From the NCBI RefSeq assembly GCF_900112305.1, contig NZ_FOKT01000007.1, forward strand, positions 135,398-199,397: DNA of 64,000 bases. The letters run 5' to 3'. The position numbers and the translations under genes were made by a program. The stretch's first letter is position 1. Each line of letters opens with the position of its first letter. Under the pieces are notes generated by a model, which did not search any database, was not told the origin of the DNA, and saw nothing but the letters and a program-made list of their open reading frames with translations. Positions 7,041 to 26,988 of this stretch are shown piece after piece. Origin of the DNA: Microbulbifer thermotolerans (GTDB taxonomy: Bacteria > Pseudomonadota > Gammaproteobacteria > Pseudomonadales > Cellvibrionaceae).

Positions 7041-8162
7041 ATGAATAAAATTTTATTCAAATTGCACAGCTGGATGGCTTTGGCCGCTTTTTTGCCGCTG
7101 CTGGTGATCTGTGTGAGTGGCAGTATTCTGGTTTTTAAGCACGAAATAGACACGCTGCTGATGGCGGAAAAGGTGCGGGTAGACACCGATGCTGGCGAAC
7201 GCTTGTCACTGGACAGGCTACTTGCCAATGTCAACCAGAGCTTTCCTGACTATGAAGTGGTCGGTTGGCACCTGTTTCAGGACCCCGGACGTGCGGACCA
7301 GGTATATCTGATACAGCGCGGTAGCAGCGAATGGTCCTACGCGCTTTTGAACCAGTATTCAGGTGCAATACTGGCTGAACCGCGCGGGCTGACGCATTAT
7401 TTCACCGACTGGCTGCTCGATCTTCACTACACCCTGCTGCTGGATGACCCGGGCCTGTTGTTGACCAGTATTTTTTCTGTGCTGCTGTGTCTATTGGGGA
7501 TCACTGGCTTGATATTGCACCGCAGATTTTGGAAAAACTTTTTCACCCTGCGCTGGAAATCCCGCCTGATTGTTTACTTCAGCGACCTGCACAAAATGGT
7601 CGGTGTTATCGCCTCGCCAGTATTGTTGATTGTGGGATTTACCGGAGCCTGGTGGAATATCAGCCACTTTGCCCACGAGATAGCAGAGCATGCCGACGGT
7701 GCGGAGCACCATGTGATGCAGTCTCGCTTGTATAGTGACGACCTTTCCCTGCAGGCGCTGCAGGATGCGGCGCAGCAGCAGGTACAGGGGTTCGAAGCCA
7801 CCTATATCTCGCTGCCCTGGGAACCGGGAGTCAATATCACCTTCTGGGGGGATGTACACACAGACAACCCCCTGCTCAGCCAGTATGCGAGCAGTGTCAC
7901 TTACGATGCCAATTCCGGTGAGTTGATTGGCGCTTTTGATATCCGCGAAGCGGGGGTGGGGGCCAAAATCATCGACAGTTACCGCCGTTTGCATTTTGGT
8001 GATTTTGCCGGCTTGGCGAGTCGCGTACTTTGGTGCGTGATCGGGCTGGCTCCGCTATTGCTTGCGGTAACGGGAGGCTATATCTGGTACCGCCGGAGGG
8101 AAAAGCGCCACAATGCGCGTATGAAGAGGCGCAACAAGCGCTTGCAAGAGTTGGTGGCCTAG
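7041..8162 (+). CDS. PepSY-associated TM helix (PiuB-type) membrane protein
   Basis: A 373-residue inner-membrane protein. Membrane helices are visible at about residues 10-32, 138-160, 187-208 and 330-350, with the extracytoplasmic PepSY-type segments between them. Members of this family are usually iron-regulated and sit beside siderophore receptors. Several reduce ferric siderophores or heme-like ligands after import, but the activity here is inference. The C-terminus is a basic cytoplasmic tail (RRREKRHNARMKRRNKRLQ). It lies 80 bp downstream of the receptor and is probably controlled with it. Confidence 0.85.
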   Translation: MNKILFKLHSWMALAAFLPLLVICVSGSILVFKHEIDTLLMAEKVRVDTDAGERLSLDRLLANVNQSFPDYEVVGWHLFQDPGRADQVYLIQRGSSEWSYALLNQYSGAILAEPRGLTHYFTDWLLDLHYTLLLDDPGLLLTSIFSVLLCLLGITGLILHRRFWKNFFTLRWKSRLIVYFSDLHKMVGVIASPVLLIVGFTGAWWNISHFAHEIAEHADGAEHHVMQSRLYSDDLSLQALQDAAQQQVQGFEATYISLPWEPGVNITFWGDVHTDNPLLSQYASSVTYDANSGELIGAFDIREAGVGAKIIDSYRRLHFGDFAGLASRVLWCVIGLAPLLLAVTGGYIWYRRREKRHNARMKRRNKRLQELVA

Positions 8163-8210
8163 AAACTGTTCGCAATAGGGGGGAGTCTCCCGCTGACATG
8201 ACGGGCAAAA

Positions 8211-8270
8211 GAAAGGCATTTCGAAACCGCCGGATGCGTCCCTGTATCCGGCGGTTTCGAAATGCCTTTC
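8211..8270. repeat. Perfect 25-bp-arm palindrome, solo MITE-core relative
   Basis: Two perfect 25-bp arms (8211-8235 and 8246-8270) enclose the loop GCGTCCCTGT. It can form a very stable hairpin between two convergent genes and may serve as a bidirectional terminator. The stem contains CATTTCGAAACCG-CGGAT, also found in the core of the MITE-like elements at 33725 and 58488, but the terminal repeats of those elements are absent here. Confidence 0.85.
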
Positions 8271-8346
8271 TCGTTATCTGGGCTTCTCGCCAGACTGGCG
8301 GGGGCTTGCGCTAGGCGAGCCAATCAATCAGCGCTGCCCCGCTTCT

Positions 8347-9012
8347 CTATGCCGGCGTCATCGCCAGTCGCGTACGGGTCTGGCGTCGCGCCAGCAGCTC
8401 GCCCAAATACATCTTCAGATATGCAGCGGCGGCGCGTTTGCCTTCCGCGGCGATCTCCTCGGTAATACACCCGAAGCGGGAATAGGAAAGCGCCCAAAAG
8501 GAGTCGTTGATGGTGATCGCCAGCAGGAATCTCTCTCGCCAATCCTGGGAGGCCGGCAGCTCGAATTCCTGCGAGATGCGTTTGAGCAGTGAATCCGCCA
8601 GGCGCAGATTATTTTCCGCCTGAAGATTGCGCAGGGCCCAGTTGGATTGCGGACCGAAATGCACCTTCAACGCTGGTAGATTTATTTCGTAGTAAGAGCG
8701 GACCAGATCGCACAGCTCGAATAACAGATCCTGCCAGCTTTCCGCCGGACCCAGTTGGGGGTGCTTGTCCAGGGCCTCACTGAAGGTCTTATAGTGACGT
8801 TCAGCCAAGGCGGTCAGACTGGCGTCCACACTGGGGAAAAAGTGGTAGACCGATGCGGCGGGAACGCCGGCCATCTGGCTGAGATTCGCGAGGGTGATTT
8901 CGCAGGAGTCCTGTTCGACGATCAGAGTTTCCAATGCATCGAGCAGTTTTTCGTACTTTTCGCGACCGTTTTTACGCTGCGGTTTGCGGGGCCTCGTGGT
9001 GTCGCGTTTCAT
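8347..9012 (-). CDS. TetR-family transcriptional regulator
   Basis: A 221-residue regulator counted from the ATG at 9012; a TTG 24 bases upstream is an alternative start. A basic N-terminus (RPRKPQRKNGREKYEKLLDA) leads into the TetR helix-turn-helix, ITLANLSQMAGVPAASVYHFFPS, at about residues 40-65. The helical C-terminal ligand domain resembles bacterial regulators of the TetR_C superfamily in length only. There is no obvious target beside it: cydB lies upstream on the same strand with its own terminator between. Function remains general. Confidence 0.85.
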   Translation of the reverse strand: MKRDTTRPRKPQRKNGREKYEKLLDALETLIVEQDSCEITLANLSQMAGVPAASVYHFFPSVDASLTALAERHYKTFSEALDKHPQLGPAESWQDLLFELCDLVRSYYEINLPALKVHFGPQSNWALRNLQAENNLRLADSLLKRISQEFELPASQDWRERFLLAITINDSFWALSYSRFGCITEEIAAEGKRAAAAYLKMYLGELLARRQTRTRLAMTPA

Positions 9013-9257
9013 TGAGCGCCGATCGATTTCGTTCAATGTTATTTCGCCCTTGACGGACGCCCGCAGGCGAGTGGCCTGCTGAGCGTTTCACATCCGTGTA
9101 AATTAGTTGTCATTTGATGACGCCAATTATTTACTGCGTACCAATAACGGGCAAGTACAACTTTTCCGATTTGTGGCTTAGTTCCGCCCTAATCAAAGTT
9201 TTTTGAACTAAATCATAAAAATTATTTGGTTATATTTTTCCTGCGAATAAAGTATCG

Positions 9258-9288
9258 AAAAAAAAGGCGCCGGACTTTGTCCGGCGCC
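9258..9288 (-). terminator. Terminator of the cydAB operon
   Basis: Perfect 10-bp arms GGCGCCGGAC and GTCCGGCGCC around a 3-base loop. On the minus strand they are followed by eight T. It lies 25 bp after the cydB stop. Confidence 0.88.
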
Positions 9289-9312
9289 GTAAACCACTCT
9301 CAGCGCTTCTCT

Positions 9313-10332
9313 TTAGTGGTATTGCAAATCCGTGGCCTTGCCATGGAATACCCGGTAAGAAAAGATCGTATAGATCAAGATCACCGGTACCACAATCAGC
9401 GCGCCGACCAGAACGAACATCAGAGACTCGGGGGCGGCTGCTGCCTGCCAGATATTCAGCTCGCCCGGCACGATTTCCGGGTAGAAGCTGAAAGCCAATC
9501 CGGTGAAGCACATCAGGAAGACCAGTAGCACGTTGATAAAGGGTAACCAGCAGTGGCGGTCGTCCACTTTTGGCAGGCGTCGCAATAGGATTTCGTTGGC
9601 GATGAAGGCAAAGAAGCAGATGATTGGTACCAGCAGTACGAACATCACCAGCGGGAAGTCAAACCAGCGGTCAAAAACACCCGGGTTCACCATCGGGTTG
9701 ACTGCGGATACCGCCACGACACCGACGAAGGCTGCCCGGCCGGCGCGGCGCGTCCAGCGGATGGCGCGTTCCTGCAACTCACCCTCGGTTTTCATAATCA
9801 ACCAGGCGCCACCGATATAGGCATAGGCCGCAGTAACGCCGAAGGCGCTCAGGATGGAGAAGAGTTGTGCCGGCCAGCTACTGTCAAATCCCATCACATA
9901 CTGGCCCAGCATATAGCCCTGGGTCAGGCTGACAAGCAGGGAGCCACCTTTAAATGTCCTGTCCCAGGCCAGTTTGTGGTCCACCGCGGCCTTGGCGCGA
10001 AAATCGAAGGATACACCGCGCAGAATCAGGCCGATCAACATAATCGCCGTGGGGATATAGAGGTTGGTGAGCACCAAACTGTGGGCTGTGGGGAAGGCGA
10101 TCAACAGCAGGCCGACTCCCAGGACCAGCCAGGTTTCGTTGGCGTCCCAGAAGGGGCCAATAGAGGCAATCATGGTGTCCCGCTGCGGCTCGTCCTGGGC
10201 GCGCATCGGCAGCAATATGCCGACGCCCAGGTCGTAGCCATCGAGGATTGCATAGACCAGTACCGCAAGGCCCATTAGGCCGATAAAAACCACTGGCAGC
10301 CAATCTGCTGCTGTCATTGCACTTGTGCTCAT
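9313..10332 (-). CDS. cydB: Cytochrome bd ubiquinol oxidase subunit II
   Basis: The 339-residue membrane subunit II of a cytochrome bd-type oxidase, which oxidises quinol and reduces oxygen to water without pumping protons. Eight to nine transmembrane segments are visible. The family block VLYAILDGYDLGVGILLP lies near residue 25, followed by GPFWDANETWLVLGVG. The start overlaps the cydA stop by 4 bp (ATGA), so the two are translationally coupled. Length and sequence style are closer to the cyanide-insensitive CioB branch than to the E. coli branch. I see no cydX-like small gene after it; the terminator follows at once. Confidence 0.93.
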   Translation of the reverse strand: MSTSAMTAADWLPVVFIGLMGLAVLVYAILDGYDLGVGILLPMRAQDEPQRDTMIASIGPFWDANETWLVLGVGLLLIAFPTAHSLVLTNLYIPTAIMLIGLILRGVSFDFRAKAAVDHKLAWDRTFKGGSLLVSLTQGYMLGQYVMGFDSSWPAQLFSILSAFGVTAAYAYIGGAWLIMKTEGELQERAIRWTRRAGRAAFVGVVAVSAVNPMVNPGVFDRWFDFPLVMFVLLVPIICFFAFIANEILLRRLPKVDDRHCWLPFINVLLVFLMCFTGLAFSFYPEIVPGELNIWQAAAAPESLMFVLVGALIVVPVILIYTIFSYRVFHGKATDLQYH

Positions 10333-11732
10333 GCTTTACCTCCGTGCGCGGACTCTAGGGTCGGTTGCTGTTTAGAGTCGGATAGGTTGGTCAGACTGCC
10401 TTCGGGGTTGGGTTCCTTAGTCTCGAATTCCTCCACTTTCACAGATTTCAGTGCCATGACTCGCAGAGTGTGGAAATAAGCCCAGAGGAGAATGACGTAG
10501 ACCACCAGGTAGAGCGTCAGGGAGAGTCCGACATTAGCCGGTGCCACCGGTGTCGCCGCTTCAGCGGTTGTGAGTATCCCGGTTACCAGCCACGGTTGGC
10601 GGCCCACTTCGGTCACATACCAGCCAGCCAGTGTCGCCAGCCAGCCGGAGGCTGTCATGGCCACTGTGGTTTTCAGTAGCCAGCCGGGCAGTTGATCGCG
10701 CCGGTACAGGTTGTAACACCCAATCCAGGCCACCAGCAGCATCAGTACGCCGAGGCCAACCATAATGCGGAAGCCGTAGAAGAGCGGCTTCACCGGTGGG
10801 TGATCGTCTCCGAATTCATTCAGGCCGGGGACTTCACCGTCCGCGTGGTGGGTGAGTATCAGGCTCGCCAATTTGGGTATGGTGATTTCCAGATGATTGG
10901 TGCGGGCCTGTTCATCGGGGATTGCGAAAAGCCTCAGTGCCGCGCCTTGTTCCGTTTCCCAAATTCCCTCCATGGCGGCGACTTTCTGTGGCTGGTGTTC
11001 GAAGGTATTGAGGCCGTGCAGGTCGCCGACAAAAACTTGCAGTGGGGCCAGTATTGCCGCCAATACCAAGCCGGTTTTGAGTGCCAGCCGCGGTGCCTGC
11101 TTTGGGTCGCCTTTAAGAATGCGGTAGGCGGACAGGCCGGCGACAAAAAAGGCCGCGGTTAATCCGGAGGCCAACAGCATATGGATCATGCGGTAGGGGA
11201 AGGAGGGATTGAAGATCACTTTCATCCAGTCGGTGGCGTGAACGACGCCATCCCGAATTTCATAGCCCGCCGGTGTCTGCATCCAGGAGTTCAGAGAGAG
11301 AATCCAAAAAGCGGAGAAGGTGGTGCCCAAGGCTACCATCAGGGCGGAGAAGGTGTGCACTTTACTGGGTACACGCTTGCTGCCGAACAACATGATGCCC
11401 AGGAAGGTCGCTTCCAGGAAAAACGCGGTCAATACCTCGTAGCCCAGCAGTGGGCCGGCGATATTGCCTACTTTTTCCATAAATCCAGGCCAGTTGGTGC
11501 CGAACTGGAAAGACATGGTAATACCGCTGACCACGCCCATGGCGAAGGTCAGTGCGAACACCTTGACCCAGAAACGGTAGGCGCGCATCCAGACCGGATT
11601 GCCGGTTTTGTCGTAGCGCACTTTGAAGAACAAAAGGAACCATCCGAGCGCGATGGTGAGGGTGGGAAAGAGAATGTGAAAACTGACGTTGGCTGCGAAC
11701 TGTATCCTCGACAGCATCAGGGTGTCTAACAT
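10329..11732 (-). CDS. cydA: Cytochrome bd ubiquinol oxidase subunit I
   Basis: The 467-residue heme-bearing subunit I in the inner membrane. His19 (VSFHILFP) and His184 (YRMIHMLLAS) are the expected axial ligands of the b-type hemes, and Glu99/Glu107 (YEVLTAFFLEATFLG) the proton-path acids. GRQPWLV, a signature of quinol oxidation, is present. The periplasmic Q-loop is short, so this is the short-Q-loop (CIO-like) class, which tends to be tolerant of cyanide and low oxygen. It lies 67 bp after a GbsR/MarR-type regulator on the same strand, which is a candidate controller. Confidence 0.93.
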   Translation of the reverse strand: MLDTLMLSRIQFAANVSFHILFPTLTIALGWFLLFFKVRYDKTGNPVWMRAYRFWVKVFALTFAMGVVSGITMSFQFGTNWPGFMEKVGNIAGPLLGYEVLTAFFLEATFLGIMLFGSKRVPSKVHTFSALMVALGTTFSAFWILSLNSWMQTPAGYEIRDGVVHATDWMKVIFNPSFPYRMIHMLLASGLTAAFFVAGLSAYRILKGDPKQAPRLALKTGLVLAAILAPLQVFVGDLHGLNTFEHQPQKVAAMEGIWETEQGAALRLFAIPDEQARTNHLEITIPKLASLILTHHADGEVPGLNEFGDDHPPVKPLFYGFRIMVGLGVLMLLVAWIGCYNLYRRDQLPGWLLKTTVAMTASGWLATLAGWYVTEVGRQPWLVTGILTTAEAATPVAPANVGLSLTLYLVVYVILLWAYFHTLRVMALKSVKVEEFETKEPNPEGSLTNLSDSKQQPTLESAHGGKA

Positions 11733-11799
11733 GAGAACCTCTGCATATAACAGTAGTTACTATCCAACCTGGATTTGCGGTGCTGAGCACCGCACCGGC

Positions 11800-12366
11800 T
11801 CATTTCGCTGTAGATTTGCCTCCTTGTACCCCGGTGGCTTTATTTTTTAATTCGAGCAGCTTGCTGATACCGGAACCCAGTTTCATCAGCTTGATCAGGT
11901 CCTTCTGCTCCAGTCTGCTCAGGGTATTGGCGAAGCGGTCCAGCAGTTCCAGCAAGTTGTAAACCTCCTGGATTTTTTTCTGCTCTTCGGCCTCCTGTTT
12001 GTCCTCCGGCGCGTTCAACAGCAACTCGCGCAACAGGCTCAGTGTCGGGTCCAGTTCCCGCTTGCGCCGTTCCTCAAACACGGTGCGCGCCAGATCCCAG
12101 ATGGAGCCGGCGGCAGTAAAGTAATCCTTGCGGTCTCCCGGCAGGTGTCGCAGTTCCACCAATCGCCAGGACTGCAACTCCTTTAGGCCCATGCTGACAT
12201 TGCCGCGGCTGATCTTTAGCGCCTGTGCCAGCTGGTCCGCATTCATGGGTTCTGACTGAATGGTCAGTAAGGCAAACATCTGCCCGACAGTGCGATTAAA
12301 GCCCCAACGGCTGCCCATTTCGCCAAAATGCAATATGAATGCCTGGGCCTGACTGGATAACTTCAT
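11800..12366 (-). CDS. GbsR/MarR-family transcriptional regulator
   Basis: A 188-residue protein with a winged helix of the MarR/GbsR type: GRSMG-like N-terminus MGSRWGFNRTVGQMFALL, then MNADQLAQALKISRGNVSMGLKELQSWRLVE (about residues 40-70) and a wing at RHLPGDRKDYF. The C-terminal third is a long charged helix suited to dimerisation. GbsR proteins repress osmoprotectant or other operons in Bacillus. Here the gene directly precedes cydAB on the same strand, so control of the oxidase is a reasonable inference. Confidence 0.85.
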   Translation of the reverse strand: MKLSSQAQAFILHFGEMGSRWGFNRTVGQMFALLTIQSEPMNADQLAQALKISRGNVSMGLKELQSWRLVELRHLPGDRKDYFTAAGSIWDLARTVFEERRKRELDPTLSLLRELLLNAPEDKQEAEEQKKIQEVYNLLELLDRFANTLSRLEQKDLIKLMKLGSGISKLLELKNKATGVQGGKSTAK

Positions 12367-12376
12367 AGTGTTCTGT

Positions 12377-12398
12377 ATTTTCAGAAATTTTTGAAAAT
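12377..12398. promoter_or_regulatory. AT-rich palindrome before the GbsR-type gene
   Basis: ATTTTCA and TGAAAAT form inverted arms 8 bases apart, just 11 bp upstream of the GbsR-type start codon. The position suits an autoregulatory operator overlapping the promoter. This is based on symmetry and position only. Confidence 0.4.
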
Positions 12399-12486
12399 TC
12401 TAAACCTTATTCGATTTCTGTCAATCATTAATCCTGTTTGGGTAGGAAACGATCCAGAAGGGGTAGAGATACTGGAGCCCGTCTTA

Positions 12487-13404
12487 TTAATCAGTGGTTC
12501 CTTGGTCCACTTGCTGTAATGCCGCTCCAAACCAACCATGCGGAACAATAAAGCCGCGTTCGGTTTCCCCCGCAGCACTTATCCCGGCGACGCAAAGCGG
12601 TGCAGGCGGGCTGGTATCGCAAAGCCTCTGCGCCAGTGCCTCACTGGTGTCGCCCGGTGTGAGACCCGGGGGCAGTGGTGCCAACCAGGCGCGCTTGGGA
12701 AGCTGAACCCAGCGCAGGGAGTGTCGGCAAAAGTGGTGTTGAAACTCGTCGAGCTCCGCCCACCAACAGGGACTGCCGCCCAAAGTCAGCTCTCCGTGCT
12801 GAGGCGCTCTTCGCGCGTCGAGTGGACGGAACAGTCGCCCCGGCATCAGTGCCCACTGGCGGTCGATATGAATCTTCTGTTGCCGCAACAGTTGCCGCGC
12901 TTGAGGCTGGTGTATCAATGGCAACTGGTGGTCGCGCATGCGCGCCAGCTTGATGTCCAGACGATCCCGCAATCCGGGGCCGACCCAGTATTCGTCCGCC
13001 ACTTGCAGATAGAATTTGACTGCGATTTCCCAGTGCTCGGTGGTGCCGCTGGGCAAGTGTTGTACTACGAAGTCCAGCTCGCCCAGGGTGCGGTCCGCGG
13101 TGCGCAAGGGTAGGTTGCGGCATCGCAGCCGGTAATCGGGGTGATGGGTAAAGGCGAACGCCCACAGGTCTTCAAAATAATCGCCCAGCCGCATCCCTCT
13201 ACCCTGTGCATCGCTCTGCGCCAGCGCTGCGTCCAACAGTGGTGCTAGGCGCGTGCGTGTCTCGGTGAGGGAGAAATAAGCCGAAAGCGCCTCCCGGCGC
13301 TGGCGCGGCAGCCACGGAAGGTCTGCGCAGCGGGCGATGGAATCCGTCTCCAGCGCCCAGTGGAGGTTGGTCCAGTGGTTGGGGGTGATAGAGGGTGTGC
13401 TCAT
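12487..13404 (-). CDS. DUF1853 family protein
   Basis: A 305-residue cytoplasmic protein matching the DUF1853 family. The block TLGELDFVVQ followed by EIAVKFYLQV resembles the acid and E-x-K spacing of restriction-endonuclease-like folds, which would make a nuclease-type fold plausible, but no activity is established. Trp- and Pro-rich segments (WVQLPKRAWLAPLPPG) fill the C-terminal half. The gene follows wecB on the same strand with a 67-bp gap. Confidence 0.8.
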   Translation of the reverse strand: MSTPSITPNHWTNLHWALETDSIARCADLPWLPRQRREALSAYFSLTETRTRLAPLLDAALAQSDAQGRGMRLGDYFEDLWAFAFTHHPDYRLRCRNLPLRTADRTLGELDFVVQHLPSGTTEHWEIAVKFYLQVADEYWVGPGLRDRLDIKLARMRDHQLPLIHQPQARQLLRQQKIHIDRQWALMPGRLFRPLDARRAPQHGELTLGGSPCWWAELDEFQHHFCRHSLRWVQLPKRAWLAPLPPGLTPGDTSEALAQRLCDTSPPAPLCVAGISAAGETERGFIVPHGWFGAALQQVDQGTTD

Positions 13405-19886: not shown

Positions 19887-20249
19887 TCAAAAAATGAATG
19901 AAAAAACGTAAAAAAGCAGATCTGAAGCGGGGTATGCAACGCAATAAAAGCGAAACAAAACAAAAAGCAAGACGGATAGAGGAAGGTATCAGAAAAATAA
20001 GCAAAAGGTCATAACGGTTTGTAAACGATCTGTTTTGCTGGCCAGGGGAAAGGTCAGAGATAGTCCGGTGATGAATAGCGCTCGAAGAGGCGATAGGGGG
20101 TAATCTGGCGAGGTTAAGGCGGCGGGGCTACGTGTGTGGAGCTTTTAGGGCGGGATGGGTATGACAAGTTCCCGAAAAGAGAATGTCAGAGACGCTCGTC
20201 GCAAAGCGCTCTAGATCCTGTGCGAGCCTGTAAATATACGCCGCCCGAA
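19887..20249. other. Gene-poor stretch left of the ssrA element
   Basis: About 360 bp, AT-rich at 19840-20000, with no open frame I would call a gene and no RNA I recognise. It would have been the native sequence downstream of ssrA before the element inserted. Confidence 0.4.
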
Positions 20250-20285
20250 AAATGAAAAACCCCAACCGAAACCGGCTGGGGCTTA
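20250..20285 (-). terminator. Displaced native ssrA terminator
   Basis: On the minus strand the stem CCCCAGCCG-GTTT-CGGTTGGGG is followed by TTTTTCATTTTT. It begins within 10 bases of the CCA-end repeat at 20291-20314, where the ssrA gene would end if the element were absent. Inferred to be the original tmRNA terminator, now 4.9 kb away. Confidence 0.75.
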
Positions 20286-20290
20286 AGTTT

Positions 20291-20314
20291 TTGGTGGAGA
20301 TGGCGGGAGTCGAA
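20291..20314. repeat. Left attachment-site direct repeat (attL/attR pair)
   Basis: A 24-bp exact copy of the last bases of ssrA (TGGTGGAGATGGCGGGAGTC plus flanks), matching 25185-25208 at the intact tmRNA gene. The repeats bound the integrated element and mark the crossover region in the T-arm/acceptor stem of tmRNA. Confidence 0.92.
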
Positions 20315-20367
20315 AAGTTTTTGTAACCCACTGATTTATAAGGGATTGTTTTTCTGTGTTTTCTCTT

Positions 20368-20388
20368 AACCCGTCAAAAAACCCGTCC
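20368..20388. promoter_or_regulatory. Left integrase arm-type sites
   Basis: AACCCGTCA and ACCCGTCCA lie 12 bp apart, 55 bp inside the left repeat. The same heptamer CCCGTCC/GGACGGG recurs seven times near the right end. Their presence at both ends of the element fits arm-binding sites of a tyrosine integrase. Confidence 0.65.
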
Positions 20389-20496
20389 AGTTGAGCAAGG
20401 TTACCCATGGCGGGCCGGTTATTGGTGGGTCGCTTGCGGCAGCTCCAGCGGTCACCGCAGTGTCCGGTTTTGTATGGTCTCCAGGTGCACCCGTGC

Positions 20497-20756
20497 GCAT
20501 GCTGGCCAGAAGTGGTGCATGAGGTGCACCATGTGGTGCATGAGGTGCAAGGGATGGGGTACGCCCGTGCGCATACTGGCCAGAAAGCCGCTTCCAGGTG
20601 GTGCCCGTGGGTATTCGGAATCCCGAATAGGGTGTTTAGAAAATTCGCTTACCCCTAGTGAGAATATTAAAGGGGGTATTTAGAAAATGCGGAAGAGAGT
20701 AATACATATAAGAGTAATACAGTAAGAGTAATACAGGAGGGCGAAAACTCGCCCTC
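20497..20756. repeat. Mixed short repeats in the element's left arm
   Basis: CCCGTGCGCAT-CTGGCCAGAA occurs twice (from about 20497 and 20571). GTGGTGCATGAGGTGCA occurs twice in tandem near 20513-20550. AGAGTAATAC occurs three times at 20696, 20711 and 20725 (spacing 15 and 14). A hairpin GAGGGCGA-AAAC-TCGCCCTC closes the block at 20737-20756. No gene fits; protein binding or replication control is inferred. Confidence 0.6.
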
Positions 20757-20867
20757 GCCGGAGCCGCGCACATCCTGCCTCTCTAGCCGCTCCTGAGTTG
20801 GCCGATTTATCCAGTGATAGCCGGGCTGGATGCTCTAACAGCTACACGATAACCCCGGCACCAGATG

Positions 20868-20950
20868 CCGGGGAGGGCGGTCACTCTGACCGGGGAGGGC
20901 GGTCACTCTGACCGGGGAGGGCGGTCACTCTGACCGGGGAGGGCGGTCAC
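20868..20950. repeat. 22-bp tandem repeat array, 3.8 copies
   Basis: CCGGGGAGGGCGGTCACTCTGA repeats exactly at 20868, 20890 and 20912, with a 17-bp partial copy at 20934. Each junction contains the small palindrome GGTCA-CTC-TGACC. The 22-bp period is about two helical turns, which would place all copies on one face of the DNA. Confidence 0.9.
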
Positions 20951-21401
20951 AGTGTCCCCCTAACCGTAATAGAACCGTAAAAGAACCATCAATGAACCGT
21001 AAGAGTGATAACGCGCGCGAATCGCGCCAAAGTGCAGCCCGTGATGTGGTTGCTCGCCTCCAGCAGGGCGCGCCGTTTTTTAGGGCTAAACAATCCGGCG
21101 GGGCGGCTGTGGTACATGAATACCCCTGAGAGGCTCTGTAAGCCATTCTGAGCGCGTTTATCACCTTGGGGTATCCATCCTACTACTCGGGCTAAAAATG
21201 GCCTTGTGGTGCTTCTCAAGGGCTTTCTCTGGTTGGTCATGGTGGGCTGGGGGTGGCTGAATCGTTTTTTCTGGTTGGGTGGCCTTCAGTTGGGGCACCA
21301 CTTTGGCGTGCTGAATTGCCTTTCAGCGGTCGCTTGCATTGCCGCCCTGGGGGGTAAGGGGGGGATTAGATAGTTCTTTGGATAGTTCTTTGGATAGTTT
21401 G

Positions 21402-21525
21402 GGTGACACTGTGTCACCACCTTGGTGACTCTCTGTCACCACCTGTTGACACTGTGTCACCACATGGTGACTCTCTGTCACCACCCGCGGACACTGTGAC
21501 ACCCCTGGGGTGTTCCTGTGTCACC
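21402..21525. repeat. Array of six 17-bp palindromes
   Basis: The palindrome GGTGACACTGTGTCACC (perfect at 21402) recurs with one to a few changes at 21424, 21445 and 21466, and more degenerate copies follow at 21489 and 21509. Centre-to-centre spacing is 21-23 bp. This is the pattern of a multi-site operator, iteron or centromere array bound by a dimeric protein. Confidence 0.88.
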
Positions 21526-21860
21526 CCTGGGGTGCCTGCTCCGAATCGCCCTGTAAGCCATTCTGAGCACGTTTTCATGGTTGGCTATGGGGATGGGTAG
21601 CCTTTGGGCTATTCGGCCTTGTATGGCCTTCTAGGGGGCTTTTCTGGCTGTGCTTCACCAGTGACAACCAACAACCATTGGCAACACCGCTCACAAGTAG
21701 CGGTTGAGTGCGCAGCTGCGGACCCGTGGGGCGAACATCCAGACAGGACCCGCGCGGGCCGCAATTGGCGGCTTGGGGTAATCAATGGGCGCAAAATTCG
21801 ACGCGCGCTCAAATCCAAATATATTTTTTAGATTCGTTTTAGATTCCTTTTAGATTCGTG

Positions 21861-21939
21861 GTCCGTTTTTGGTACTACCCCAGTACCGTTTTTGGTACTG
21901 GTTTTGTCCGTTTTTGGGTCTGGTCCGTTTTTGGTACTG
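21861..21939. repeat. Iteron-like direct repeats
   Basis: The unit GTCCGTTTTTGGTACTG appears four times with small changes, starting at 21861, 21884, 21906 and 21923. It is directly preceded by an AT-rich stretch with three copies of TTTTAGATTC (21825-21860). An AT-rich tract beside iterons is the usual look of a replication origin, but no Rep protein is recognised. Confidence 0.75.
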
Positions 21940-22158
21940 GTCAACTCGCCGCGCGCTCAATGCACCCCTAAGTAATCGGCTAACCACTGGTCATTGGTTT
22001 GTTCTTGAGGGGGTACAGGGGTAACCGTATAACCGTGTGCCCTTGTTACCTTATAACCGTGGTTATTTTGTCCCGTACTTAAAAACGGCTCTAGGCCGCA
22101 TGGTTGCTTGGTTTGCGGCAATTCCTTGTCTGGAACTCTTGTCTGGAAATTGTTTGGC

Positions 22159-22190
22159 AGTTGTCCGGGAGTTGTCCGGCAGTTGTCCGG
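22159..22190. repeat. Three 11-bp tandem repeats
   Basis: AGTTGTCCGG recurs at 22159, 22170 and 22181, a strict 11-bp period (one helical turn). A related TCCGTTTTTGG core occurs in the iteron block 250 bp to the left. A longer open frame crosses this block on the minus strand, but its sequence here is only the translated repeat. Confidence 0.7.
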
Positions 22191-22366
22191 TGGTTTCACC
22201 CCCAGCAGGCGGGGCGGTCCGGTGGGCTGGTTGCTACTGCCCGAATCGCGCACCGCGCGCCAATGTGGCCGGTTAATTGGTTTGCAATTCATGCGAATTT
22301 GCACCACGCAGTAAATGTTTACTGAAAAATGCCCTACGGGCACTTGGTATATATGTATATAGGTGT

Positions 22367-22488
22367 CCGTGTGGCGGCCTAGGGAAAATGCGAAAAACGC
22401 AAATATAGGGCCGTGTGGCGGCCTAGGCGAAAGAAAAAATTCGCTCTATTGGGCCGTGTGGCGGCCTAGCTTAGGCCGTGTGGCGGCC
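22367..22488. repeat. Four palindromic GGCCGTGTGGCGGCC repeats
   Basis: CCGTGTGGCGGCCTAG occurs at 22367, 22411 and 22454, and a fourth copy CCGTGTGGCGGCC at 22476. Most copies include the palindromic arms GGCCG and CGGCC around TGTGG. Small hairpins (GCGAAAAACGC; GCGAA...TTCGC) lie between the copies. The last copy overlaps the 3' end of the minus-strand gene at 22446. Confidence 0.85.
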
Positions 22489-22904
22489 ATCAGAAAATCG
22501 AAATTGCCCTTTGGCTCCCTCCAGGTGTTTGGGGCGGTGACAGTGGCTGATACCTCCAGCTTGCCCCCGCATTCGTCAATGGGCCGCCAGCTGAGCGCGT
22601 ACAGGCTGGGGACGTTGGGCCTTCGCCCCTGTCGGGTCAAAATCAGGAACCCAGTTTCCAGCAGTTCCCGGAGTGCCTTTTGCAATTGGTCATTGCTGGT
22701 CCAGCCGTGGGCGCGCATTGTTGAGAATGAAGCGCACAAGTCGCCGTTGTTGCGTCCGTTGTACTGTGCCACTAGGGGGAACAATAGCGCCTTCGCCCTT
22801 GGTGTGAGCGCGGCAAAGTGGGGGTGGTTTACCATGTGATGCGGAAAGGCGGCGAACTGGCCGTCGCCTCGGCTCCGTTTGCCCTGCTTGTATCCCTTTG
22901 CCAT
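22446..22904 (-). CDS. Winged-helix-like protein of the ssrA element
   Basis: A 152-residue basic protein of no family I can name. The middle (LTPRAKALLFPLVAQYNGRNNGDLCASFSTMRAHGWTSNDQLQKALRELLETGFL) reads like a winged helix: a scaffold helix, a recognition pair, then a tip at LTRQGRRPNVPSLYAL. Similar arrangements occur in plasmid and phage replication-initiation or helix-turn-helix proteins. Its start overlaps the previous stop (TAATG), so it is translated together with it. The repeats at 22367-22488 lie at its end, and the iteron-like blocks downstream are candidate binding sites. Confidence 0.65.
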   Translation of the reverse strand: MAKGYKQGKRSRGDGQFAAFPHHMVNHPHFAALTPRAKALLFPLVAQYNGRNNGDLCASFSTMRAHGWTSNDQLQKALRELLETGFLILTRQGRRPNVPSLYALSWRPIDECGGKLEVSATVTAPNTWREPKGNFDFLMAATRPKLGRHTAQ

Positions 22905-23266
22905 TACCCCCCCAGTTTGCGCACTGATTGAAATAGCGGCGGTTCTGCTATAGCGCGCTTAAGGCGTTGCTTCTCGCTTGCGGGTATCCAGTAAACGCCA
23001 TGCCAGCCTATAAGGCCGTCCCTGTCGATGTGCTTAATCCGTTTGCACAGAATATTGATTCCGCGTTGTCGCAATTGCCTTATGAGTTCGGGGCTGTTGC
23101 TGGCTCCGGCTATCCTGTCCAGCTCCTCGCGGCTGTGGGGGCGCTTTAATAGGGCAGATAGCGCCCGCCATTGACGGGGGCTAAGGTGAAGCTGTTCAAA
23201 GGTGTTATAATTGGCTGCTCCTCCCTTTTCGGAGCCGCCTTTCGGGGCGGTTCTGATTCCCTCCAT
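22904..23266 (-). CDS. Small DNA-binding-like protein of the ssrA element
   Basis: A 120-residue protein counted from the ATG at 23266, chosen because GGGGAGG stands 5 bases before it; the open frame extends further upstream but would overlap the AlpA-like gene. The core LSPRQWRALSALLKRPHSREELDRIAGASNSPELIRQLRQRGINILCKRI matches the look of a helix-turn-helix used in phage-related modules, in which LLKRPHSREELDRIAG is the helix pair. GLIGWHGVYWI is a beta-hairpin wing. It starts 3 bp after the AlpA-like stop, and the next gene starts inside its stop codon, so three genes form one operon. Confidence 0.65.
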   Translation of the reverse strand: MEGIRTAPKGGSEKGGAANYNTFEQLHLSPRQWRALSALLKRPHSREELDRIAGASNSPELIRQLRQRGINILCKRIKHIDRDGLIGWHGVYWIPASEKQRLKRAIAEPPLFQSVRKLGG

Positions 23267-23268
23267 GC

Positions 23269-23499
23269 TTACACCTCCCCGCCTTGTGCTTGGTCCATCA
23301 ATTCCCGTTTCAGTTCCAGCAGGTAGGAGCCTTCCCACACGGTAATTTTCGAGCCTAGTTTTGTCCCGCGTTTTACTTTGCCGATTTTGGACCAATGCCA
23401 CCAGGTGGATAGGCCAATGGAATAAAAACGGGCGCATTCTTTGGCGCGGTAAAGTGCGGAAGGGTTGATGGTTGGGAGGTGGGAAGCGGTTTCTTGCAT
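23269..23499 (-). CDS. AlpA-like MerR-type helix-turn-helix protein
   Basis: A 76-residue protein resembling AlpA/excisionase-type regulators: RAKECARFYSIGLSTWWHW is the helix-turn-helix and GKVKRGTKLGSKITVWEGSYLLEL the short wing. In P4-like and other satellite elements AlpA activates the integrase gene or acts as an excisionase. It is the first gene of the three-gene operon and is transcribed in the same direction as the integrase gene, 250 bp downstream of the integrase stop. GAGGAA precedes the start at a slightly long distance. Confidence 0.75.
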   Translation of the reverse strand: MQETASHLPTINPSALYRAKECARFYSIGLSTWWHWSKIGKVKRGTKLGSKITVWEGSYLLELKRELMDQAQGGEV

Positions 23500-23749
23500 A
23501 TGCTAGATTTCCTCGCGTGAATAGAGATTTAAATTATGAAGGTTGTGCAAGGAATTAGAAATAAGAAAATGCGTTTAAACAGTAAAAAAAAGGCTTTTTT
23601 AAGCTATGGCTAAGATAGTTAGTCTATGAGACTAAGCTATTTGTTAAGGCGGCTAAACTTTTGGCTAACTTTTTATGGCGACAACGGGAATTTTTAAATA
23701 TTCGCCCCTTAATTTTTTCCCGTTGCCGTTAATTGATTGCGTCGTTTTT
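23500..23749. promoter_or_regulatory. AlpA-operon promoter region with dyads
   Basis: A 250-bp AT-rich gap. Near 23615-23640 the arms TTAGTCT and AGACTAA flank ATG and extend imperfectly to ATAG/CTAT, a candidate operator 120 bp before the AlpA-like gene. A second dyad, GACAACGGGAA (23680-23690) and TTCCCGTTGCC (23717-23727), lies just after the integrase stop and may terminate integrase transcription. Confidence 0.45.
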
Positions 23750-24979
23750 TTAATTGGTACCGAATTTCACAGTAACCACATTTTCCGCTTTTGCCTGCTC
23801 GCGCAGGGCGTCCAGATAATCCGCCCATCTTTGCATCATGGTTGTGCGCTGGGGTAAGTGCTTGGTGCGGTTGTAGGCGCGGCCTAGGGGGTCTTTCACG
23901 GTGTGCGCCAGTTGGTGCTCGATGTAATCCACTCGCTCATGGAGCACTTCATCCAGAAGGGTGCGGGCCATAGCGCGGAAGCCGTGGCCGGTCATTTCTT
24001 CGTTGGTGTAACCCATATTGCGCAGGGCTACCCTGATAGCGTTTTCAGACATGCAGCGGCTGGCCCCTCTCTCGGATGGGAAAACATAGCGGAAGCGTCC
24101 GGTCAGCGGCTCCAGGTCGCGCAGAATGGCCACCGCTTGGCGGGCTAAGGGGATAATGTGGGGTTCCCCCATTTTCATTTTTTCGGCGGGTATCTCTATT
24201 CTCTGTTCCTCCCAGTTGATTTCTTCCCACTCCAGGGCGCGCAGCTCGCCGGGGCGGCAAAACAGCAGCGGGGCCAGCTTCAGGGCCGCGCGCACTGTGG
24301 GGGTGCCTTGGTAGTTGTCGATGTTCACTAGCAGCTTGCCCACGTCTGCGGGGTTGGTAATCGCGGCAAGGTGTTTTTTCTTGGTGGGGGTGAGTGCGCC
24401 GTTTAGGTCAGCGGTTGGGTCGCGGTCGGCTTTGCCGGTCGCCACTGCGAAGCGGAACACTTGGCTGGCAATCCGCTTTACTCTGTGGGCGGTTTCCAGT
24501 GCGCCCCTGCTTTCGATTCGGCGCAGACAGCGGAGCACCTCGGGGGCGGTAATGTCGGCAATTGGGCGGTCACCTAGGTAGGGCAGCAGGTCTTTATCCA
24601 GTGCGCGGCGGGCGCGGTCTTTGGATGAGTCGGACAGGTGCGCCATTTTGGCCGCGAACCACTCTTCACTGACAGCGGCAAAGCTGTTTTTGTTGGCTTC
24701 CATCGCGGATTGCTTGCGGGCGCGCTTCACGTCGCGGGGGTCTATGCCTTCGGCCACATACTGGCGCGCTTCATCGCGCAGCTCCCGCGCCCTCTTCAGG
24801 CTCACATCTGGGTAAACACCCAAGGCCATTTCTGGCCGCTTGCCGTGGAGGCGGAAGCGGAACACCCAGCGCTTTGTACCGGTCGGGGTTACTTCGATTG
24901 CCAGGCCCTTTTCGTCGGCCTCGGTGTACTTTTTGGCGCGGGGCTTGAGCGCTCTTACTTTGGTGTCTGATAGCGGCAT
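23750..24979 (-). CDS. Tyrosine-type site-specific integrase
   Basis: A 409-residue integrase of the P4/CP4-57 type that recombines the element's att site with the 3' end of ssrA. The ATG at 24979 was chosen because AGGAGG lies 8 bases before it; the longer open frame only translates the tmRNA gene and arm sites. The N-terminal MPLSDTKVRALKPRAKKYTEADEKGLAIEV is the DUF4102 arm-binding domain. The catalytic domain has Arg in LLFCRPGELRALEW, the box HGFRAMARTLL and the nucleophile Tyr in LGRAYNRT. The length is typical. Three GGACGGG sites stand immediately upstream, so self-control by arm binding is likely. Confidence 0.95.
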   Translation of the reverse strand: MPLSDTKVRALKPRAKKYTEADEKGLAIEVTPTGTKRWVFRFRLHGKRPEMALGVYPDVSLKRARELRDEARQYVAEGIDPRDVKRARKQSAMEANKNSFAAVSEEWFAAKMAHLSDSSKDRARRALDKDLLPYLGDRPIADITAPEVLRCLRRIESRGALETAHRVKRIASQVFRFAVATGKADRDPTADLNGALTPTKKKHLAAITNPADVGKLLVNIDNYQGTPTVRAALKLAPLLFCRPGELRALEWEEINWEEQRIEIPAEKMKMGEPHIIPLARQAVAILRDLEPLTGRFRYVFPSERGASRCMSENAIRVALRNMGYTNEEMTGHGFRAMARTLLDEVLHERVDYIEHQLAHTVKDPLGRAYNRTKHLPQRTTMMQRWADYLDALREQAKAENVVTVKFGTN

Positions 24980-25003
24980 GGCTCGCCCTCCTAGCTGTAG
25001 CGT

Positions 25004-25117
25004 GGACGGGGTGGACGGGGTGGACGGGTTGGCCGGTATCGTAGGGGCTAACCCGTCCAATAACCCGTCCATTTGGGGGTGGTCTTGGACGGGTTTTGCT
25101 AGATTAACCGGGACGGG
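25004..25117. promoter_or_regulatory. Right integrase arm-type sites
   Basis: GGACGGG occurs at 25004, 25013, 25022, 25087 and 25111, and its complement CCCGTCC at 25052 and 25064. The first three are tandem with a 9-bp period, 25 bp before the integrase start. The same heptamer flanks the left end, as expected for arm sites of the integrase. Confidence 0.7.
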
Positions 25118-25121
25118 CCAG

Positions 25122-25161
25122 ATAAGCAAAAGCCCCGAAAACTCTAGGCTTCCGGGGCTTT
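25122..25161 (-). terminator. Element-borne replacement ssrA terminator
   Basis: On the minus strand the arms AGCCCCGG and TTCGGGGCT form a hairpin followed by TTTTGCTT, about 25 bases after the tmRNA CCA end. It lies inside the element, so the element appears to supply a terminator to the target gene in place of the one it displaced. Confidence 0.7.
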
Positions 25162-25184
25162 CGTGGTTTGTTTGGGATTGGGTA

Positions 25185-25208
25185 TTGGTGGAGATGGCGG
25201 GAGTCGAA
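25185..25208. repeat. Right attachment-site direct repeat
   Basis: A 24-bp exact match to 20291-20314. This copy is part of the functional tmRNA gene, whose CCA end is at 25186. The sequences diverge at the bases immediately outside both repeats. Confidence 0.92.
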
Positions 25209-25539
25209 CCCGCGTCCGTCAGCACTCCGCCAGAGGCTCTACATGCTTAGTTCCGTCTATTGATTTAACTCACAACAGCCCGGCGGGCAGGACGTTATGA
25301 GCGAGTCTGTAAAGATTTAGCCGATCCATCCCAGACAAACTTCACGGCGATCCAGTTCTATCTGACAGTCAGCAGCGCGGTACTGGAACCTTGCTGAAGA
25401 CTGCTGGCGGGCTTAAGCCGCCAGAGCGTAGTTGTCGTCGTTGGCAACTATTAAATTGCAGCTTTGGATTTACGTGATTGGCTGCCATCACGGCATGCAC
25501 CCATGGTTTCGTTACCGGCGTCGAATCCAAGTCATCCCC
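25186..25539 (-). ncRNA. ssrA: tmRNA (transfer-messenger RNA)
   Basis: A 354-nt tmRNA that rescues stalled ribosomes with SmpB. The minus strand starts GGGGATGACTTGGATTCGAC and ends CGCGGGTTCGACTCCCGCC-ATCTCCACCA, the conserved tRNA-like halves with encoded CCA. The tag frame at 25413-25445 reads ANDDNYALAA and stops with TAA; the resume codon is GCC. The length and tag match gammaproteobacterial one-piece tmRNA. smpB lies 1.6 kb upstream on the same strand. The 3' end is the integration target of the element to the left, which rebuilds the gene exactly. Confidence 0.97.
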
Positions 25540-25641
25540 GATAGGAAACACAGTTGTGTCGCCGGAGTATATCAAAATTTGCTCCGGGGCGACAGGTGGG
25601 GGCGTTTGTGGACTCGTGGTCGGGGCGCCCCTTTCCCGCAG

Positions 25642-26988
25642 TTAGGAGAGCGATTGCACGAAGGCCGCCAGTATGAGCAGGGGGCAGACGATGCGTACGT
25701 ACCAGGGCCAGATTTTCCAGAAAAGGGTGTGCTCGATGTTTTCGTGTCCTTTTTTGAGCTCCGCCAGCAGCTGGTCGCGATGCCAGATCCACCCGGCGAA
25801 GACGCACAGAGCCACACCCAGCAGCGGTTGGCCGTACTCGGTGCTGATGCTGACGATGAGTCCGAACAGGGAGTCGAAATTGAAGATGATCAGGCTGCTG
25901 AGGGTGAATATGACCAGCCCAACCAGAGGGGTTGCCAGTTCGCGCCGTACGCCGAGGTTTTCGATGGAGAAGGACACCGGGACTTCCAGCATGGAGATGG
26001 AGGAGGTGAGGGAGGCGATCACCATCAGGGCGAAAAAGGCGATGGCCACGAACAGGCCCGCAGTGCCCATGGTTTCGAACAGGGCCGGCAGTACCTGCAG
26101 TATCAGGTCGGGGCCGGCGATCAGTTCGCCGCTGGCGGAGAAGATCTGGGTGCCCGCTTCCTGGGCCACGTACATGGCGGGCAGTATCAATAGGCCGGCG
26201 GTAAAGGCGATACCCACATCGATCAGAGTCACCAGGGCTCCCAGGCGCGGCAGGCTTTCCTGCTGGCTGAGGTAGGAGCCGTAAATTAGCATAGTTCCCA
26301 CGCCGAGGGAGAGGGAGAAGAAAGCCTGCCCCATGGCGGCGATCAGCAGTTTGGGGGAGAGGTGGCTGAAGTCGGGCATCAGATAAACTTCCAGGCCGGT
26401 CATGGCGCCGGGCTGGGTGAGCACGTAGATGATCAGCAGCAACAGTAGGATGATCAGGGAGGGCATCAGCAGGGTGGACCAGCGCTCAATGCCTTTTTCC
26501 ACGCCAGCGGCGATGATCAGCATGGTCATGCCGCTGAAAATGGCGGTGAAGGTCAGGTTGCGCCCAGTGCTGTTGCCAGTGAGCCAGTCTGTGGCTCCAC
26601 TCATGCCGAAAAAGTTGGCGAAGGGGTCGGCCAGGTAGGCGACCATCCAGCCGGCGACAATGGCATAGAAGCTCAGAATTAGTGAGGCGACAACAATGCC
26701 ACCGAAACCAGCGAGGTTGGCAAAGATGCGGCTGATGGGGCCGGTGGATATGCCTCGCAGGGCCTGGACCATATTGCGGCGCGCGTGGCGACCGATGGTC
26801 AGCTCGGCCATCAGGGCCGGGTAGGCGAGTATAAACGCCAGCAGCAGGTAGACAATCACAAAAGCGGCGCCGCCGTTGCCGGCGGCCTTGGTGGGGAAGC
26901 CCCAGATATTGCCCAGGCCCACGGCGGAGCCCGCTGCGGCCATCAGGAAGCCGATGTTGGAGCTGAATTGTCCTCGCGGTGCACTCAT
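25642..26988 (-). CDS. Neurotransmitter:sodium symporter (NSS/SLC6) family transporter
   Basis: A 448-residue inner-membrane Na+-coupled transporter with 11-12 helices, of the LeuT/MhsT type that imports amino acids or related amines. The first helix carries the Na+ and substrate-site signature AAGSAVGLGNIWGFPTKAAGNGGAAF. The second conserved block, SLSLGVGTMLIYGSYL (helix 6 and 7), is present. The C-terminus is short and basic. The substrate is unknown. It follows smpB on the same strand, with another NSS gene on the other side of smpB. Confidence 0.92.
   Translation of the reverse strand: MSAPRGQFSSNIGFLMAAAGSAVGLGNIWGFPTKAAGNGGAAFVIVYLLLAFILAYPALMAELTIGRHARRNMVQALRGISTGPISRIFANLAGFGGIVVASLILSFYAIVAGWMVAYLADPFANFFGMSGATDWLTGNSTGRNLTFTAIFSGMTMLIIAAGVEKGIERWSTLLMPSLIILLLLLIIYVLTQPGAMTGLEVYLMPDFSHLSPKLLIAAMGQAFFSLSLGVGTMLIYGSYLSQQESLPRLGALVTLIDVGIAFTAGLLILPAMYVAQEAGTQIFSASGELIAGPDLILQVLPALFETMGTAGLFVAIAFFALMVIASLTSSISMLEVPVSFSIENLGVRRELATPLVGLVIFTLSSLIIFNFDSLFGLIVSISTEYGQPLLGVALCVFAGWIWHRDQLLAELKKGHENIEHTLFWKIWPWYVRIVCPLLILAAFVQSLS

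Follow-up and report, generated by a model that had tools for sequence, protein, structure and literature searches.

An ssrA-integrated element of Microbulbifer thermotolerans with an arm of repeat arrays resembling phage replication origins

The phage-inducible chromosomal island-like element (PLE) of Vibrio cholerae has an initiator that binds iterons in a non-coding region, and its replication needs the phage (PMC7145576); PLE replicon modules are exchanged (PMC8263062). The phage-inducible chromosomal minimalist islands (PICMI) of Vibrionaceae are very small satellites with an integrase, AlpA and large non-coding regions (PMC10803314). In Lactococcus, phage-encoded resistance (PER), in which a phage origin from inside the replisome organizer gene is present in trans, can protect the cell (PMC8965321). 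In this study, we analyzed a 64,000-nucleotide stretch of Microbulbifer thermotolerans DNA (contig NZ_FOKT01000007.1; hereafter the window, to which all positions refer) and describe in it a 4.9-kb element (20291-25208) that is integrated at ssrA in a 3.92-Mb genome and carries a repeat-rich arm. On balance, we favor the reading that it is a phage satellite whose arm holds a set of origins borrowed from phages, and that it would be replicated by whichever phage supplies the matching initiator.

The element resembles PLE in being small and in having iterons in a non-coding region, and the model of its 152-aa protein, P0001, has a weak fold match to 4ro3; phage-dependent replication is a property of PLE. 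In the available descriptions, PLE encodes a single initiator, of the RepA_N type, that is paired with an origin of its own, and a large serine recombinase, and no set of phage-type origins is mentioned there, whereas the integrase here is a tyrosine integrase and P0001 has no Pfam family. With PICMI, the element shares very small size, an integrase with an AlpA-like protein, and large non-coding regions. PICMI (int, alpA and a DUF3987/DUF5906 primase) lie at fis in Vibrio hosts of the Vibrionaceae, whereas here the sites are ssrA or tRNA genes, the host is Microbulbifer and no primase was found in the four proteins scanned. PER comes from cloned origins, whereas here several different origins occur in a natural mobile element. 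P4-like satellites and phage-inducible chromosomal islands (PICIs) are defined by a primase-helicase or a pri-rep gene, and none was found in the same four proteins; what we take to be shared with them is the integrase beside an AlpA-like gene and the defense cargo of relatives. The profile scans (Pfam and PHROGs) covered the integrase and the 76-, 120- and 152-aa proteins, the other open reading frames (ORFs) of the element being left out, and returned no structural, helicase, primase or relaxase family, which agrees with the minimal gene set of the preliminary description (an integrase, an AlpA-like protein and two small DNA-binding-like proteins). As in a satellite, an integrase is present and a full virion gene set is absent, and the relatives lie at ssrA and tRNA genes. 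The literature searched, which mostly excluded subscription papers and preprints, describes no element with the origins of several different phages.

The arm of about 2.1 kb is indeed rich in repeats, as had been proposed: Tandem Repeats Finder (TRF; score at least 50) calls nine tandem arrays between 20696 and 22469, versus three in the rest of the window. That the arm is free of genes is mostly correct, the exceptions being a 128-codon frame at 21957-22343 and the last array, which extends into the 152-aa gene at its 3' end. At the level of sequence, four arrays show the anatomy of lambda-type phage origins (iterons with AT-rich repeats), without initiator coding sequence:

20609-20753, plus strand: ori-1, GGGTATTCGGAATCCCGAA-type units and AT-rich 14-mers (AGAGTAATACAGTA), with prophage and viral-contig matches
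20852-21003, plus strand: ori-2, one CCCCGGCACCAGATGCCG unit, 22-bp repeats (CCGGGGAGGGCGGTCACTCTGA, 3.8 copies) and AT-rich 11-mers (AACCGTAATAG), with phage matches
21369-21508, minus strand: ori-3, AT-rich 12-mers (GATAGTTCTTTG) and 21-bp iterons (GTGACACTGTGTCACC / GTGACTCTCTGTCACC), with prophage and Vibrio phage matches
21820-21942, minus strand: ori-4, AT-rich 11-mers (TTTTAGATTCG) and iterons (GTCCGTTTTTGGTACTGG), with prophage and viral-contig matches

The iterons of ori-2, ori-3 and ori-4 are in tandem, as in a lambda-type origin (TRF periods 22, 21/42 and 23), and dyad symmetry in the iterons was judged by eye only. AT-rich repeats of 11-14 bp adjoin the iterons in all four arrays (62-78% AT versus 46% in the arm). 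Relative to the iterons, they take the side that they also take in the phage genes used for comparison, which for ori-3 are those of Vibrio phages, where the sequence of the AT-rich repeat differs. The likeness to a lambda-type origin lies in the repeated units, the adjoining AT-rich tract and the fact that genes of this type in several phages match in sequence. A lambda-type origin sits inside an O-like initiator gene, whereas here several origins lie side by side and their initiators are not encoded; the four phage-type arrays of the arm are not within an O-like gene, and the matching arrays elsewhere are inside an initiator gene.

The arm was compared with 48 Microbulbifer genomes, with at most six candidates scored per genome, and matches were obtained in 16 of them (five rows in its own genome and 20 in others). 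Eleven of the 20 are recognized elements of the same kind or their ends. Eight of the remaining nine overlap phage replication-initiator genes, placed independently by PHROG profiles; the ninth (genome G011) is a match to the end of the element (20368-20401), with no integrase match nearby. Weak short matches in seven genomes (G020, G024, G030, G034, G042, G044 and G045) were left out of the gene assignment. Four matched genes belong to PHROGs replication initiation (L199, E 4e-68; L200, 1e-41; L198, 9e-12; L201, 1e-9); the ORF tried at L197 has no PHROG family, yet the genome profile search places an initiator there (G047, 4e-18). By array, ori-1 is 74-76% identical to the prophage initiator genes of G047 and G039, with shorter matches in G003, G004 and G036, the iterons of ori-3 are 82% identical to an O-like gene of a G005 prophage, and ori-4 matches prophage initiator genes of G043 and G003, with 80% identity across 100 bp and 94% across 52 bp. 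In the alignments, the shared part is the repeat array, together with the adjoining AT-rich repeats for ori-1 and ori-4; no coding homology extends past the arrays, and no O-like reading frame continues in the arm. When the whole window was compared with 53 initiator loci (E 1e-3; two overlapping profile searches, so that not all are separate places), matches were confined to the arrays of the arm, and none of 200 dinucleotide-shuffled arms matched these loci.

Matching arrays also occur in phages and viral contigs elsewhere. Among 2.9 million viral contigs, the exact ori-1 unit is present in three and the exact ori-4 unit in four, in every case in an initiator-like ORF (by PHROGs on L275, L276, L277 and L279; by eye, from identical or near-identical ORFs, on L278, L280 and L281). 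The first ori-2 unit is found in 60 viral contigs, many of them close relatives of one another, and lies within an initiator ORF in 57 (blastp), the others being L289, L318 and L330. The AT-rich 11-mers of ori-2 match 11 phage records, annotated as primosomal protein I in ten and as a helix-turn-helix protein in one; these matches span 33-38 bp at E 0.01-0.5, and the two that were opened are O-like. For ori-3, there are 73 matching phage records, all from Vibrio among the best 30 of the 73, and the four genes opened are all initiators by PHROGs; AT-rich 12-mers adjoin the 21-bp unit in three of these four (L269, L273 and L274; L270 was not scanned). The whole arm matches 91 phage records at E 1. 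An order-wide search with the arm gave matches in four of 390 genomes, its own included, a weak negative with two candidates scored per genome. The preliminary description had taken the repeats to be cis sites for helper functions; this is well supported for replication, for which four arrays match phage origins, and is not supported for packaging.

An arm of this kind could also act as a set of decoys, in which the arrays titrate or misdirect the initiators of incoming phages and the element need not replicate from them. Such decoys would have the same anatomy, an effect of this kind has been reported for a phage origin region supplied in trans, as PER (PMC8965321), and relatives of the element carry anti-phage cargo in the same region; neither of the two initiator profiles searched has a match in the host genome, so that the phages targeted would be incoming ones. 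Binding is independent of the AT tract, and opening requires it (PMC7466680). Because both the iterons and the AT-rich tract, needless for a binding decoy, are kept in all four arrays, working origins are favored over pure decoys. The sites in one chromosomal copy would also be few relative to phage copy number, unless the element replicates. We regard pure decoys as unlikely, though worth keeping in view. As working origins, the arrays would function as follows. Upon entry or induction of a phage, a circle would be excised by the integrase and its AlpA-like partner; the O-like initiator of the phage would bind the matching array, open the AT-rich repeats and load the replisome, and several different phages would each be able to amplify the satellite. 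An element-specific route would be provided by the 152-aa protein with its own array, packaging into helper particles may proceed via a putative site, and gain or loss of origin blocks would change the set of exploitable phages.

The same genome contains a second element, at tRNA-Arg(ccg) (L009, about 7960-12740 with ends estimated; contig C22 of G000). This sister copy shares 21942-22953 at 97%, 21548-21812 at 94% and 22961-23499 at 86% identity, and has counterparts of the four genes, including a P0001 homolog that is 94% identical, in addition to a 281-aa ORF. The blocks of the arm that are absent from it are 20512-20557, about 20613-21075, 21160-21547 and 21813-21941, and all four phage-type arrays lie within these blocks, to a few bases. 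The other features of the arm are as follows:

20512-20557, no strand assigned: candidate further array (TGGTGCATGAGGTGCACCATG-like, two copies), absent from the sister copy
20484-20511 and 20558-20585, no strand assigned: 28-bp direct repeat D13 flanking the 20512-20557 block (repeat search, sister comparison)
21133-21159 and 21548-21574, no strand assigned: 27-bp direct repeat D14 flanking the ori-3 block (repeat search, sister comparison)
21957-22343, minus strand: 128-codon open frame, its 3' part being the end of an alternative 266-301-aa gene (tblastn E 1e-28 to 4e-23)
22015-22190, minus strand: ori-5, element-type array (TTGTCCGGCAG, 11/22 bp, 22139-22190) with adjoining TAACCGT repeats (by eye); array also in L193-L196
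22357-22498, minus strand: ori-6, own-type repeats (CCGTGTGGCGGCC, four copies, spacing 44/43/22) overlapping the P0001 gene at its 3' end (repeat search, TRF)

No convincing match was found for the array at 20512-20557. The 128-codon frame is open in both the window element and the sister copy. The 266-301-aa gene occupies the slot of the 152-aa gene in four other ssrA elements (L193-L196), where an array of the ori-5 kind also lies inside its 3' end, and ori-6 is 99% identical in the sister copy. From their sequence context, ori-5 and ori-6 belong to initiator-like genes of the element family.

Three of the four absent blocks, including those of ori-3 and ori-4, have a direct repeat on either side; two of these repeats measure 28 bp and 27 bp, and the third, around GCGCGCTCAA, about 12 bp. 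Such flanks would result from gain or loss by recombination, although the block with ori-1 and ori-2 has none. The flanks, and the remnant of another element gene adjoining the arrays, would fit inert debris, that is, phage origins that chance recombination has deposited in a non-coding arm tolerant of such insertions and that have no present function. On this account, it is difficult to see why origin DNA alone is present, in four different types and with repeats and AT tracts kept, and why other loci of the P0001 family show similar multi-array arms; we consider debris improbable. Working origins are therefore preferred to pure decoys, and pure decoys to debris.

These other arms lie downstream of P0001 homologs. 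At least five arrays are present in four of 119 downstream regions (nine in the window, nine in L128, seven in L138 and five in L139), and no more than two occur in any of 116 upstream regions. The arms of L128 (9250-10330), L138 (6900-7960) and L139 (8990-10070) are on viral contigs and consist of units such as GTTGTCAAAACGACAACC and TCCCGATTTGGGAC; by eye, the three look like one lineage that shares array types. The L139 arm is followed by a Bro-N gene and is the only one with an integrase match nearby in the stretch examined. Its sole phage match is the primosomal gene of Burkholderia phage Bcep176, and the L128 arm has four Brevibacillus phage matches (E 0.03), all four annotated as replication protein O or helicase loader. 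The L139 unit occurs in four viral contigs, namely its own (L346), two in which it lies in an O-like ORF (L344, by Pfam Phage_rep_O; L345, by eye), and L347.

Several observations weigh against a satellite with borrowed working origins. No replication, excision or packaging has been observed. The sister copy manages without all four phage-type arrays. Array density is 2.24 per kb here and 0-0.83 per kb in 17 other element regions, from Microbulbifer and two related families, so that the panel is rare. The best-covered prophage copies are only 74-82% identical (94% over 52 bp for one) and initiator binding is putative; with such identities, the true source phages are probably outside the collections. 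The G043 and G003 initiator genes behind ori-4 are interrupted, and the G005 iterons have no called AT-rich array next to them. The ori-1 units are irregular, and TRF did not report them as a tandem array either in the window or in L200, though they can be aligned with the prophage array, and the two named phage records that match ori-1 are annotated as a hypothetical protein and a DNA methyltransferase. The 22-bp repeat of ori-2 gave no match, the pattern of this repeat and the AT-rich repeats was found in none of the viral contigs, and ori-4 matched none of the phage records. The order-wide match in G769 consists of repeats resembling TTATCCACA boxes. Among the other multi-array arms, that of L138 has no phage match, the L139 unit lies outside an initiator ORF in L347 (one of three other contigs), and a class-wide search with the L139 arm found none in 369 genomes, a weak negative with two candidates scored per genome. 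The host genome has no match to the initiator profiles phrog_270 and phrog_391; therefore, no resident helper is known.

The genes and ends of the element are as follows:

20291-20314, no strand assigned: distal attachment (att) copy, 24-bp repeat of the ssrA 3' end (repeat search, 100% identical)
20367-20393, no strand assigned: putative integrase arm-type repeats (ACCCGTC) of the distal end, pairing with 25049-25075 in the repeat search
22446-22904, minus strand: P0001, initiator-like winged-helix protein, 152 aa (AlphaFold2 model, Foldseek, PHROG)
22904-23266, minus strand: small winged-helix-like protein, 120 aa (PF22324, E 7e-4, under the curated cut-off)
23269-23499, minus strand: AlpA/excisionase-like protein, 76 aa (PHROG excisionase, E 0.057)
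23750-24979, minus strand: tyrosine integrase, 409 aa (PF13356, PF22022, PF00589; phrog_1, E 6e-66)
25002-25097, no strand assigned: putative integrase arm-type repeats (GGACGGGT / ACCCGTCC) of the integrase end
25185-25208, minus strand: att copy at the 3' end of the intact ssrA (tmRNA detection, repeat search)

The tmRNA gene (ssrA; 25186-25539, minus strand) is intact according to ARAGORN and Rfam RF00023, and it is the only RNA gene found in 20000-25700 at Rfam gathering scores. About 4e-8 exact 24-bp direct repeats would be expected by chance in 5 kb with even base use; the repeat search and tmRNA detection confirm the integration at the end of ssrA that had been claimed from this repeat. 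An arm-type role of the end repeats is suggested by the sister copy, which has another integrase N-terminus and another end repeat (TACCCCCAAATG). The sister integrase gene is 94% identical at the DNA level in its C-terminal part and diverges in its N-terminal part, as do the short repeats that flank it. The sister integrase looks chimeric, as if the target site and the arm sites had been swapped together. No cos or pac site came up, and no systematic search for one was made. Profile support for the label of the 76-aa protein is weak, with no Pfam match at E 1; its homolog adjoins the integrase in 10 of 12 relatives and was not found in L030 and L031.

The AlphaFold2 model of P0001 is a winged helix (mean predicted local distance difference test score 87.8). 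In Foldseek, the initiator 4pt7 ranks first, and 5kbj (a Rep-DNA complex), 4pql and DnaD (2v79) are in the top 11; the top matches have E 0.05-0.11 and are mixed with other winged-helix proteins. We take 5kbj and 4pql to be RepA_N proteins. The match to 4ro3, the N-terminal domain of PLE RepA, ranks 31st (E 0.27), and the PHROG match to replication initiation has E 0.04. From this weak likeness of the model to plasmid initiators and DnaD, P0001 is probably the origin-binding protein of the element. A single-protein query found no viral relatives, and an alignment query found 44 loci. The record of Pseudomonas phage vB_Pae_U1 (PP003913.1) reads like a chromosomal island, with integrase, cox, primase and Rhs genes, and its P0001 homolog is annotated as replication protein O. 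Among 72,556 plasmid records, P0001 homologs are present in two, with 37% and 30% identity. This scarcity, the absence of a relaxase family from the four proteins scanned and the matches of the arrays to phage initiator genes make it very improbable that the element is an integrative mobilizable element moved by conjugation, with the repeats as an origin of transfer (oriT) or plasmid sites, even though it is small and integrative and has no structural genes among the proteins scanned.

P0001 homologs are present in 13 of 96 genomes, its own included. In all 12 contexts from other genomes, a related integrase lies beside a tRNA or tmRNA gene: tmRNA in five, tRNA-Met in four, and tRNA-Arg, tRNA-Leu and tRNA-Phe in one each. 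A second att copy is within the fetched stretch in five of the 12 (L025, L027, L028, L032 and L033). The elements L193-L196 (G029, G036, G041 and G018) are at ssrA and have the same kind of integrase, AlpA-like and winged helix-turn-helix genes; their 266-301-aa gene gave no PHROG match for L194 and no Pfam match for L195. L193 (11414-11887), L194 (8243-8718), L026 (9170-9395) and L195 (7584-7797) share with the flanks of prophage initiator loci a stretch of 0.2-0.5 kb, which resembles an Ash-like leader region.

Defense-type cargo occupies the distal region of family elements. Profile scans of selected ORFs found Dsr1 (L029:9811-13641), a type I restriction system (L035:9079-15657), a defense-type reverse transcriptase (PADLOC RT_VI; L028:9694-10656), an NsnA-like protein (L196:10263-11315), and AbiJ-like and TIR-like proteins in L025. 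Several cargo ORFs have no profile match, among them both ORFs of L033 and the 275-281-aa ORFs of L009, L025 and L028. In G015, an ssrA relative (L032:640-11160) encodes a head protease, a major head protein, a tape measure protein, a minor tail protein and, as an N-terminal fragment, a tail protein; the ten ORFs scanned include no terminase or portal family, and the relative is possibly a capsid-modifying satellite. Satellites can carry both kinds of cargo, which supports the satellite reading. The preliminary description had allowed that the arm might be a degraded piece of a common, gene-filled element. The cargo of L025-L036 and the 0.4-kb gene remnant at 21957-22343 fit this, but what the four phage-type arrays match are initiator genes of phages, not genes of the elements; therefore, a degraded element covers only part of the arm, and we rejected it as an account of the whole.

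The satellites described in the literature consulted replicate from their own origin. If our reading is true, the simultaneous presence of several phage origins would offer a novel means of broadening helper range, or of disturbing many phages at once, through DNA sites alone, and would let helpers be predicted from sequence. It also suggests that the "non-coding" arms of other islands be read for borrowed origins. More tentatively, and at somewhat less than even chances, the element may represent a class of mobile elements with helper range written in cis, in which interchangeable origin cassettes, each for one phage group, are gained and lost like spacers. The row of cassettes would then be a readable record of the phages that a lineage has exploited or fought.

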